From contig NZ_JAGBLU010000015.1 in NCBI RefSeq assembly GCF_017635265.1, positions 1-58,507 of the forward strand: a stretch of 58,507 nt of DNA, in the 5' to 3' direction. A program made the position numbers and the translations under genes. The first letter of the stretch is position 1; each line of letters starts with the position of its first letter. The notes beneath the pieces were generated by a model, which had not been told where the DNA came from, did not search any database, and worked only from the letters and a program-made list of their open reading frames with translations. Positions 51,284-57,337 of this stretch are shown piece by piece. The stretch is from Butyrivibrio sp. Its GTDB lineage: Bacteria > Bacillota > Clostridia > Lachnospirales > Lachnospiraceae.

Positions 51284-52819
51284 TCAGTCTTTAAGATATG
51301 TGAATGGGTCTTTTTCATACCAAGTCTTTTTGTATGGGAACTTGACATGCTTTGATACTTCTTTTACGTAAGAGTCATTTTCAAGTGCAAAGGCAAGCTG
51401 TCTTGCTACCTGGAAAACTCCGTTATATCCAAAATATGCTCCTCCGATATCAAACTCAGGAACAGTTACTGCTCCAAGCTTTGCAGGCTCAGTAAGACCA
51501 TTTGCATGACAGAGAACAATATCCGGATTGCTCTGCTTAACCTGATTTACAAATTCATATGGCTGGTCACTTACGACAACAGGAACCTGCGGATGATCCT
51601 TTACCAGATCCTCAAAAGCTGCTTCGGCATTGGAGTCATATAAAAGACCTATGACAGACACAATCTCCATTCCAAGATCGTCATGGATAAGTGAAGCCTC
51701 AACAGCACTTCGTACGCTTCCTCCGGAGATCATTACGCGCTTACCTTTAAGCTTTTCTTTAAAAGGAGCTATTGCTTCAAGTACAAGTTTTTCCTCATAA
51801 TCGGCAAGTCTTTCAGCTTCTTTTTTCAGTCCGAAGTGTTCTCCTATATCAACAAGCCATTTTCTTGTTGCCTTAAGTCCAAGTGGCATTCCCATGTAAT
51901 ATGGAACGTTATATTTGTCCTTTAAGTACTTAACAAAATAATCGTCATGCATCCAGCAAAGACTCACATTTAAAGCTGCCTCGGATACAAATCTGATCTT
52001 GTCAGCATTACTGTACTCAGGAAGAACATTCACATTCAGATTAAGTGCATTAAGAATTCTTGAAAGTTCAGCTTCATCTTGTGCTCCCATTGACTCAAGG
52101 GTCATGACATTTACAGTATATTTTTTCTTATACTCATAGCCTGCTGCCAGAAATGTCGCATTGGGGTCAGCCGGATTAAGCGGAACATAGTCCTTGTATT
52201 CTATAGGTTCAAGCTGAATATGACGGATAAGTGAGTGGTAAAAAGCATCATAGGCACTTGATACATATTTTGATCTAAAGCCCGGACAGTGTATTGCTGT
52301 AAGCTGAGCAGATACAACCTTGCTTTCATCCTCTATTATCTTTTCTACATCATCACCGATAATGTTTGGTGCGCAGGTAGAAAGAACAAAAATAAATTCA
52401 GGTCTGAAGGTCTTGTCAGCATATTCAATTGCTTCCCTCAGTTTCTTTTCTCCGCCGTTTACTATCTCTGTTGTAGAAAGATTTGTTGAAAGCCAGTTCA
52501 CCGGATTGGGTGTAAGCCCCCTTACTCTCTTTCCGTTATTTGTTGAAAAAGTCTGTATGTGCAGCTGATGTCCGCAGCCTACAGGTCCATGCATTATAAG
52601 AACAGAATTTTCAATGGGTGCTGACATCATGATTGAAAGGAACATCTGACAGGATGAACTTCCCTGCCAAAAGTCTCTGTCTTTTCCTTTCAGACAGCAG
52701 TTTCTGGAACAGTCAAGAAGATCGCAGCTGCATCCGTGGTAGGCATCGGTTGCTTCAAGCCTTTCCTCTCTGGTAGGAGGAATTGATTTCTCGACGTATT
52801 TATTTTCAAGTTCGCTCAT
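51284..52819 (-). CDS. Nitrogenase-like reductase, NifD-type catalytic subunit
   Basis: The 511-aa protein is NifD-like. P-cluster-type cysteines are Cys57 (SSSCQMF), Cys82 (HGPVGCGHQ) and Cys149 (LSTCAPNIIGDDV). Cys288 in LNVSLCWMHDDYFVKYL lines up with the FeMo-cofactor Cys275 of NifD. The region matching His442 (GPYHGFDGF in nitrogenase) reads GAYFGYNGVF, so Phe463 replaces the second cofactor ligand. A Cys-rich stretch HGCSCDLLDCSRNCCLKG lies at 28-45. It should hold an FeS/NifB-derived cluster, but not act as a standard N2-fixing enzyme. It follows the NifK-like gene by 11 bp. Relation to methylthio-alkane reductase MarD is the best family hypothesis. Confidence 0.88.
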   Translation of the reverse strand: MSELENKYVEKSIPPTREERLEATDAYHGCSCDLLDCSRNCCLKGKDRDFWQGSSSCQMFLSIMMSAPIENSVLIMHGPVGCGHQLHIQTFSTNNGKRVRGLTPNPVNWLSTNLSTTEIVNGGEKKLREAIEYADKTFRPEFIFVLSTCAPNIIGDDVEKIIEDESKVVSAQLTAIHCPGFRSKYVSSAYDAFYHSLIRHIQLEPIEYKDYVPLNPADPNATFLAAGYEYKKKYTVNVMTLESMGAQDEAELSRILNALNLNVNVLPEYSNADKIRFVSEAALNVSLCWMHDDYFVKYLKDKYNVPYYMGMPLGLKATRKWLVDIGEHFGLKKEAERLADYEEKLVLEAIAPFKEKLKGKRVMISGGSVRSAVEASLIHDDLGMEIVSVIGLLYDSNAEAAFEDLVKDHPQVPVVVSDQPYEFVNQVKQSNPDIVLCHANGLTEPAKLGAVTVPEFDIGGAYFGYNGVFQVARQLAFALENDSYVKEVSKHVKFPYKKTWYEKDPFTYLKD

Positions 52820-52830
52820 TTTATTTCCTC

Positions 52831-56064: not shown

Positions 56065-56475
56065 TTAATCTTCAATCCCGGCATTTAACAATATCTGTCT
56101 GGCTCTTTCCCTGCTCAAAGTCTTTCTGTCCCGATAGTCTCTGACTTTGTGGATTGCTTCATCTATATCTGCCACAATATCCAAAGCTGTTATATTTTTT
56201 CTGCTAAGGGCCTGAACCGCTTTAGGACCTATTTTTGCTGCCAGAACATATTCAATATCCGAAAGCTGTTCACTTATCAGTTCAAATATTTCATGGTCGT
56301 TGCAGGTTCCGCTTTTACATGCACTCTGGATCAGCTTTCTGCTCTCAACAGGCTCATTGCCTCCGGTTCTTGAATCGACCTCATAAATTGTAAGTTCAGT
56401 GACATGTCCAAAATGAGAATCAACATTTATCCCATCTGATGTTGCTACCGCAACTTTAAAAGTTTCTTCAGCCAT
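56065..56475 (-). CDS. NifX/NafY-type dinitrogenase cofactor-binding protein
   Basis: The 136-aa protein matches the dinitrogenase iron-molybdenum cofactor domain ([38 protein letters not shown]), the fold of NifX, NifY and the C-terminus of long NifB. It should bind or carry the cluster made by NifB. A Cys pair in [10 protein letters not shown] is extra. Its start overlaps the nifB stop by 8 bp. Confidence 0.9.
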
Positions 56476-57337
56476 GAGAAAAAGTCTCCTTTACGAATAA
56501 TCTTCCCTGATAAAGCTTTGCACCTATGTCATAAACTCCCGGAACTCCGCAGGCATCTGCTCTGCAGTGCTGACAATGTCTGAATACGTTTATGTGGACT
56601 TCTGCCTCTTCTCTTGCCTTGTAGAGTTCCTCGCAGCTAGGTGCTCTAAATTCTTTCATTTCATTCTGCGGGATCAGCGGAATAATGTTGTAGATAAGCG
56701 CTCCTGCTGCCTTGACTGTAGCTGCCACATCCTCGATGTGCTTATCATTTACTCCCGGTACCAAAACAGTATTTACTTTTACCAGCGTTCCTGATTTTGC
56801 TACCTTTCTGATCCCGCTTAGCTGGTTATGTATCAGTATCTTTGCGGCCTCTACCCCTTCGTATACCTTTCCGTGGTAAATGATCCTTTTATTTATCTTT
56901 GCTTCAATTTCAGGATCCACCGCATTAACTGTGACTGTAAGCGTATCTACAAGTTCACTGACTTCATCCGCTTTCTCATCTAATAAAAGTCCGTTGGTAC
57001 TCATGCATTTAATAAGATTTGGATATTTGTCTTTTATCAGTCTGAATGTCTTTAGCGCTCTGTCGGTTGCCAGCGTATCTCCCGGACCTGCTATACCAAC
57101 TACAGTTATTTCAGGGCATTGCATAAGCGCAAGATCTATAAATCTTGATGCTTCCTCCGGCTCCAGTACAGTACTGGTAACTCCTGGCCTTTGCTCATCC
57201 TCATTTATTTTTCTGTCGCAGAAACGACATTCTATATTGCATCCCGGTGCTACCGGTAAATGTATTCTTCCTTTATTCTTTTTGCATGGTCCAAAGCATG
57301 GATGCTCTTTGTACACTAATTCTTTATCTAGTGGCAT
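56468..57337 (-). CDS. nifB: NifB-like radical SAM cofactor maturase
   Basis: NifB joins FeS clusters and adds a carbide and sulfur to form the 8Fe core (NifB-co). This 289-aa protein has the SAM-cluster motif CNIECRFC (33-40), the N-terminal HPCFGPC (Cys14, Cys18), HLPVAPGC, RPGVTS, GIAGPGDTLA, and C-terminal CQHCRADACGVPG (Cys255, 258, 263), all NifB hallmarks. It lacks the NifX-like tail; this function is in the next gene. With no nifEN or nifV here, the reductase probably uses a NifB-co-like cluster. ATG follows a promoter and a 23-bp hairpin. Confidence 0.92.
   Translation of the reverse strand: MPLDKELVYKEHPCFGPCKKNKGRIHLPVAPGCNIECRFCDRKINEDEQRPGVTSTVLEPEEASRFIDLALMQCPEITVVGIAGPGDTLATDRALKTFRLIKDKYPNLIKCMSTNGLLLDEKADEVSELVDTLTVTVNAVDPEIEAKINKRIIYHGKVYEGVEAAKILIHNQLSGIRKVAKSGTLVKVNTVLVPGVNDKHIEDVAATVKAAGALIYNIIPLIPQNEMKEFRAPSCEELYKAREEAEVHINVFRHCQHCRADACGVPGVYDIGAKLYQGRLFVKETFSHG

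Follow-up and report, generated by a model that had tools for sequence, protein, structure and literature searches.

A Butyrivibrio operon joining a nitrogenase-like reductase to a dedicated cysteine synthase, a probable anaerobic sulfur-scavenging system

Layout of the operon

Contig NZ_JAGBLU010000015.1 of Butyrivibrio sp., a gut relative of Butyrivibrio hungatei (assembly GCF_017635265.1, 4.15 Mb, 88% complete), analysed here as a stretch of 58,507 nucleotides (hereafter the window), carries a single minus-strand operon (57663-45962) encoding a nitrogenase-like reductase, a cysteine synthase (CysK) and an ABC importer. It is longer than the six genes (nifB, nifX, nifH, cysK, K-like and D-like) that an earlier note, made from the sequence alone, had recognized. 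All six are open minus-strand frames where that note placed them; their identities are borne out by Pfam matches from E 1.5e-14 (NifX) to 3e-128 (NifH) and their tight packing by gaps of 11-24 bp between listed frames, or overlaps (49 bp between nifX and nifH should NifH begin with the methionine at 56015). Throughout, family support comes from Pfam, bit-score thresholds are the curated NCBIfam cut-offs, and statements from cited papers refer to the excerpts consulted. In the order of transcription, the operon comprises:

57514..57663, minus: DUF2292 (YezD-type) protein, 49 residues, first operon gene; PF10055 E 2e-15 (scanned frame 57517-57666, with one more upstream codon and the stop excluded)
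57413..57431, minus: conserved hairpin CCGA-stem-loop-stem-AGG, antiterminator candidate in the attenuator leader
57367..57416, minus: terminator hairpin, overlapping the conserved hairpin with its 5' strand; leader fold z -7.1
56468..57337, minus: NifB-like radical SAM protein that lacks the C-terminal domain of NifX type; best PDB match 7bi7 (NifB), E 3e-87
56065..56475, minus: NifX-like cluster carrier; PF02579, E 1.5e-14
55158..56084, minus: NifH, electron donor (likely start near 56015); TIGR01287, over cut-off
54189..55133, minus: dedicated cysteine synthase CysK; TIGR01139 over cut-off, tree and motifs
52831..54177, minus: NfK, MarK/NifK-like catalytic subunit; best PDB match MarK 9d9u_C, E 4e-62
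51284..52819, minus: NfD, MarD/NifD-like catalytic subunit, clade A (see below)
50140..51267, minus: substrate-binding lipoprotein of SsuA/NrtA/NMT1 type (inferred start)
49095..50123, minus: ABC permease of the importer; PF00528, E 1.5e-21
48310..49095, minus: ABC ATPase of the importer (start inferred at 49095); PF00005, E 5e-36 on frame 48310-49242
47858..48310, minus: DUF4418 protein; PF14387, E 8e-27; label present in 8 of 80 related loci
46642..47856, minus: FtsX-like permease; PF02687, E 4e-10
45973..46641, minus: ABC ATPase partnered with the FtsX-like gene, last operon gene; PF00005, E 4.5e-34; the pair recurs in related loci
45962..45985, minus: operon terminator (consensus scan)

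The order from nifB to the last ATPase is identical in B. hungatei and in Lachnospiraceae AC2028 and P6A3, and a genome of the same genus (G225) encodes a D protein 91% identical to that of the window.

Relationship and active site of the reductase

Both catalytic subunits score far below every listed nif, vnf, anf and bch cut-off. The solved structure nearest to D, by sequence and by fold, is MarD of methylthio-alkane reductase (Mar), and MarK is nearest to K by sequence. In our tree, the window D falls in a supported clade (clade A; 35 rows, support 99/96) that is sister to the Mar group (16 rows, 100/100) and lies outside it. With groups named following a first tree, topology tests argued against joining the window D either to the Mar clade (approximately unbiased test, p-AU 2.9e-7) or to Nif (p-AU 1.7e-4). 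The earlier description of the enzyme as a nitrogenase-like reductase and not a nitrogenase is supported. The likeness to Mar proposed in the same note stands in part: with MarD as the closest solved relative of D, a Mar-like way of working is likely, but the tree, the p-AU value and a missing arginine (Arg428, below) place the protein outside the Mar group proper.

Relatives are encoded on 334 stretches of the named collection, of which we kept the best 80. Clade-A D proteins (E up to 1e-60) occur in 8 of 391 genomes of the class and 14 of 392 of the order, and their distribution within the genus is patchy (3 of 18 same-genus genomes among those listed), the window's own genome being included in each count. 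The relatives from the named collection that entered the tree belong to Bacillota, Synergistota, Spirochaetota, Fusobacteriota and Myxococcota. Five other same-genus genomes encode NifH proteins 84-86% identical to that of the window in nitrogenase-like (Nfl) operons of Mar type, KVF type or no assigned class, several of them with CysK.

Residue conservation was counted over 93 distinct clade-A D proteins, near copies uncorrected and six D proteins fitting no class excluded; for these counts clade A was defined by the motif CxxHDxY and the absence of RH, so that these traits, together with His291, Asp292 and Tyr294, are there by selection. The P-cluster cysteines reported earlier are in place (C57, C82 and C149 in the window D, and three cysteines in K by alignment to MarK), and C288 is kept at the position of NifD Cys275 and of the Fe1-binding Cys270 of MarD. 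Across clade A, C82, C149, C288, His438 and Tyr190 are found in 93/93 proteins and C57 in 91/93, the other two showing gaps. Residue roles, and the proposal of Arg428-His429 as the loop-I hallmark of Mar, come from PMC12552129. The window D has this histidine and a deletion at the arginine; Arg428 (by selection) and Trp195 are present in all 18 Mar-type D genes and both missing from the window D. The column of MarD Trp195 contains Trp in only 2 of the 93 clade-A rows, that of Phe199 contains Tyr in every one, and that of His375 is split among His (56), Asn (28) and Leu (9). At the column of NifD His442, presumably the histidine of 'HSYDYSG', the window D and all 93 clade-A rows show a gap, against His in 3/3 NifD rows. 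The seven D proteins of KVF type have no residue at the loop-I histidine position. Seven loci represent an additional Nfl clade, mostly with the motif CKVFADE, in which the cysteines are kept and the loop-I histidine column is a gap; its mode of cluster binding may differ.

The supply of a NifB-type cluster, also foreseen in the earlier note, is supported by the NifB relative in the operon, which is nearest to the NifB of a solved structure and scores under the nifB cut-off (276 vs 343.65 bits). NifH matches that of C. pasteurianum (1cp2, E 2e-143) better than MarH (3e-84), and the only strong NifH match in each of three close genomes (G225, G116 and G915) is the operon's own.

The cysteine synthase and the fate of the sulfur

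The window CysK scores 437 bits against a cysK cut-off of 350.95 and remains under the cysM cut-off. The O-acetylserine sulfhydrylase active-site motifs tested are intact, and the protein has KIQGIGAGF at a position where CysM carries another motif. On the same strand and within 6 kb, a CysK gene accompanies 69 of the 93 clade-A D genes, and 41 of the 48 that have 4 kb of flanking sequence on both sides; CysK and K are the two labelled genes preceding D in 56/93 cases, and the label CysKa occurs in 60 of the 80 named loci, many of which are contig ends. Such proximity would arise by chance in about 1% of cases or less (estimated on the basis of 33 matches to CysK across 12 genomes), and it was seen for none of three Nif D genes. 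In the CysK tree, 64 of 65 clade-A-adjacent proteins belong to a single group of 73 (support 0.88) that is separate from housekeeping copies, the 65th being the second CysK of its locus, and six positions differ at a level of at least 85% in both sets between the operon group and 18 housekeeping-type copies. This dedicated type was found in 7/8 operon-bearing genomes (65-100% identical to the window protein), whereas the best CysK of four same-genus genomes without the operon is of housekeeping type (62-65% identical). Adjacency and separate grouping thus agree with the earlier claim of a built-in cysteine synthase, which appears dedicated and conserved.

A sulfite reductase (PF01077) was not found in six of the eight clade-A genomes, among them the window's own genome and its nearest relatives, 100% and 99% complete, and was matched in 11 of 14 control genomes. 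Because of this, and because the adjoining enzyme scores as CysK and not as CysM, inorganic sulfide is the likely product of the reductase, the likeliest one on sequence grounds. All eight clade-A genomes encode a CysE-like protein, over cut-off in three of them.

The substrate presumably enters through the operon's importer. Folds that match its binding protein include those of CmpA, NrtA, SsuA, TauA and thiamine-precursor binders, and a sequence search gave three weak PDB matches. When 23 such binding proteins were compared with NCBIfam, SaoX was matched by all 23 and SsuA_fam by 22, whilst each of four other models was matched once; the window protein stays far below cut-off with both SaoX and SsuA_fam. 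Four cysteines (C89, C159, C262 and C263) are invariant in the 23 aligned proteins and might possibly bind a metal or a thiol.

The reading that we consider probable is that of an anaerobic sulfur-scavenging system. The SsuA/NrtA-type importer would take up a small, probably anionic sulfur compound. NifB would build an [Fe8S9C] cluster, perhaps carried by NifX, to be placed in D with Cys288 and probably His438 as ligands; NifH, driven by ATP, would pass electrons through the P-cluster to the D cluster, where the reductase would split a C-S bond and release inorganic sulfide. The dedicated CysK would then combine this sulfide with O-acetylserine to form cysteine.

Several observations weigh against such a scheme. 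NifH clears the NCBI nitrogenase cut-off (457.9 vs 394.35 bits), and the window D has a leucine at MarD His375. CysK was also seen close to D genes of Mar type (9 of 18) and of KVF type (3 of 7), so this neighbour is not special to clade A, and it is missing within 6 kb of 24/93 clade-A D genes (some at contig ends). One genome (G808) has a clade-A D gene and just a 61% identical, housekeeping-type CysK, and a PF01077 sulfite reductase is present in two of the eight clade-A genomes. Finally, bicarbonate and nitrate binders outrank SsuA among the folds closest to that of the binding protein.

Among other explanations, a strict methylthio-alkane reductase, releasing methanethiol while CysK makes S-methylcysteine or serves something else, fares best and is still rather unlikely. 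MarD and MarK are the closest solved relatives, and distant clade-A loci contain URO-D methyltransferases (seven loci) and corrinoid proteins (six; one representative of each was checked), like the mlp clusters with group IV-A MarHDK-like genes described in PMC10418091. Yet the window D falls outside the Mar clade, lacks Trp195 and, by selection, Arg428, and shares with all of clade A a tyrosine at Phe199, and its operon has CysK in place of the O-acetylhomoserine sulfhydrylase-like enzyme seen in three Mar-type loci (best model TIGR01326, below its cut-off). Slightly less credit goes to a sulfonate reductase like Isr, in which sulfite would be freed, then reduced and fixed: the SsuA-type importer within the operon recalls the SsuCAB genes of the isr locus (PMC11423573), but the window D has all the cysteines that IsrD misses, the operon has a NifB relative whereas IsrB is not NifB-like, and no PF01077 sulfite reductase was found in the window's genome, G225 or G116.

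Nitrogen fixation by a group IV-A (Nfa-type) nitrogenase without NifEN is more improbable still. NifH above its cut-off and the NifB relative fit this view, and Endomicrobium proavitum is said to fix 15N2 by means of a group IV enzyme, NifEN being absent (PMC9147875, PMC8399215, PMC4995403), an enzyme without the NifD histidine according to PMC4995403 and predicted to have all ligands according to PMC9147875; group IV N2 fixers are reported in PMC9147875 and PMC8399215. On the other side stand the conserved sulfur partners, the p-AU value against joining Nif, the gap at His442 throughout clade A and the absence of nifE and nifN, as the earlier note had it: the four PF00148 matches in the 88%-complete assembly are the window pair and a diverged pair on contig C67, which reaches 66.6 and 29.4 bits against a nifE cut-off of 505, with no nifN match listed. 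NifV exceeded its cut-off in 0/4 genomes, a weak control since it did so in 0/14 control genomes as well. We therefore agree with the earlier note that N2 fixation is unlikely, given no NifEN over cut-off, the His442 gap and the test against Nif. The C67 pair (C67:23340-26106) is in itself a second, strongly diverged nitrogenase-like pair. It has a NifH-like gene to itself, lies next to genes for ABC transporters, scores far under every NCBIfam cut-off and was seen in two further loci. Least probable of all is that the sulfide is released from thiocyanate or some other small sulfur compound, inorganic or C1, instead of a larger organosulfur one: nitrogenase reduces thiocyanate and carbonyl sulfide, and small anions are the ligands of the folds closest to that of the binding protein (CmpA, NrtA), but the locus itself offers no direct hint of it.

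The leader element and neighbouring genes

Upstream of nifB, the leader contains a hairpin with the consensus C[CT]GA-N4-ANNA-N4'-AGG. A search of 226 loci, some overlapping, gave 30 matches (23 distinct) against 0.6 in shuffled sequences, and a pattern independent of pairing gave 44 sites, spread over 31 of the 392 genomes from the order, against 5 for a reversed control. Watson-Crick pairing of the stem is found at 35 of these 44 sites; counting distinct 19-mers, 13/18 are paired where 25% is expected (p 3e-5), or 14/18 where 56% is expected if G-T pairs are allowed (p 0.05). A terminator sharing the 5' strand with the hairpin follows 46 of 55 distinct sites, compared with 3.1 when the downstream sequence is shuffled. 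The genomic context was examined in 20 regions from the 31 genomes, clustered matches being preferred, 18 of which had paired sites (27 in total); this search was blind to Nfl, and the genes behind the 27 sites, labelled after the window protein that each matched best in BLAST, are Nfl operons (12), polar amino-acid importers (7), SsuABC-like importers (3) and others (5). The element occurs once in the window's own genome and, in an alignment of four leaders, only that of B. hungatei resembles the window's. The window leader and seven related loci gave no Rfam match at gathering score; under a lax threshold only microRNA or snoRNA models were matched, for the window leader and one related locus.

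DUF2292 is encoded in 25 of the 31 pattern-bearing genomes against 3 of 30 pattern-free genomes taken in list order (Fisher 2e-8) or, by paired sites, in 24/26 genomes with against 4/35 without, statistics uncorrected for relatedness. Its frame ends 0-21 bases upstream of the hairpin in 13 loci and about 80 bases upstream in the window. Since the two keep company in genomes and loci, our guess is that DUF2292 may bind the hairpin. The family is also matched in Bacillus subtilis; among the paper titles listed by a literature search under DUF2292/YezD, nearly all unrelated, none concerns its function. The region 57366-57663 (minus strand) is a candidate for a new antitermination system of sulfur operons, in which the leader terminator would block transcription until the alternative hairpin is stabilized, possibly by DUF2292, the presumed regulator acting in that presumed direction; DUF2292 would in this way gain a role open to testing. 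A bolder combination, in which an imported sulfonate is converted to inorganic sulfide wholly on the [Fe8S9C] cluster by a reduction of several electrons, replacing C-S lyase and sulfite reductase, and the operon is switched by such RNA antitermination with DUF2292 as RNA-binding protein, seems to us about as improbable as the Isr-like reading.

Several neighbouring features deserve mention. The DUF4418 gene and the FtsX-like/ATPase pair (45973-48310) recur beside several kinds of Nfl operon (five loci). A gene cluster for sulfur amino acids adjoins the operon (38438-45959); it encodes an ABC importer for polar amino acids, a C-S lyase of PatB type, a Cys/Met PLP enzyme and two CysK-like proteins, one of which exceeds the cysK cut-off. 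A cobalamin riboswitch at 38189-38402 (minus strand), outside the operon, precedes an apparent corrinoid biosynthesis cluster.

Comparison with known systems

The type of operon described here is already known, since PMC3464626 (2012) connected a possible sulfur metabolism with Nfl genes that encode Cys275 and lie next to cysteine synthase or O-acetylhomoserine sulfhydrolase, and since both Mar (PMC12552129) and Isr (PMC11423573) have been established by biochemistry or genetics. The chemistry distinct from that of Mar suggested in the earlier note is likely as regards product or substrate; the link of CysK with Nfl genes was already in print. The product inference, the dedicated CysK group and the leader element go beyond what we met in PMC3464626, and these and the clade signature were not met in the excerpts of the literature found.

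An operon of this kind would normally be taken, from its nifH, as a sign of nitrogen fixation, and as its NifH exceeds the NCBI nitrogenase cut-off, nifH surveys may count such operons. In a human gut study (PMC4995403), nifH of cluster III, close to Lachnospira and Butyrivibrio, was detected in 10.7-31.7% of people from four populations, with no reason found why such bacteria could not fix N2; because other members keep the NifD histidine according to this study, some may be true nitrogenase carriers. For some gut nifH carriers, the operon context described here is a reason against N2 fixation.

The group IV-A/Nfa genes of PMC10418091 and PMC9147875, for which we met no biochemistry in the excerpts of these papers, probably belong to clade A in Acetivibrio at least, a genus in which CysK and mlp-type genes accompany those of clade A. 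The CysK differs from the housekeeping O-acetylserine sulfhydrylase not in its motifs, which are intact, but in forming a separate group that travels with the reductase. The IsrBHDK system of Rhodobacter capsulatus (PMC11423573) is also nitrogenase-like, serves sulfur assimilation and has an SsuABC-type importer; unlike the window D, IsrD lacks Cys275 and has only one P-cluster cysteine, IsrB is BciD-like and the product is sulfite. MarBHDK of Rhodospirillum rubrum (PMC12552129) shares with the window system its fold, P-cluster cysteines, Fe1-binding cysteine, loop-I histidine, NifB-type partner, NifH-type donor and sulfur context. In contrast with Mar, the window system belongs to a separate clade without Arg428, has replacements at Trp195, Phe199 and (in the window) His375, a CysK neighbour and a NifH nearer to Nif than to MarH. 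Beside the methanethiol of Mar and the sulfite of Isr, sulfide destined for CysK would be a third sulfur chemistry for nitrogenase-like enzymes, and the residue signature of clade A offers a means to test it.

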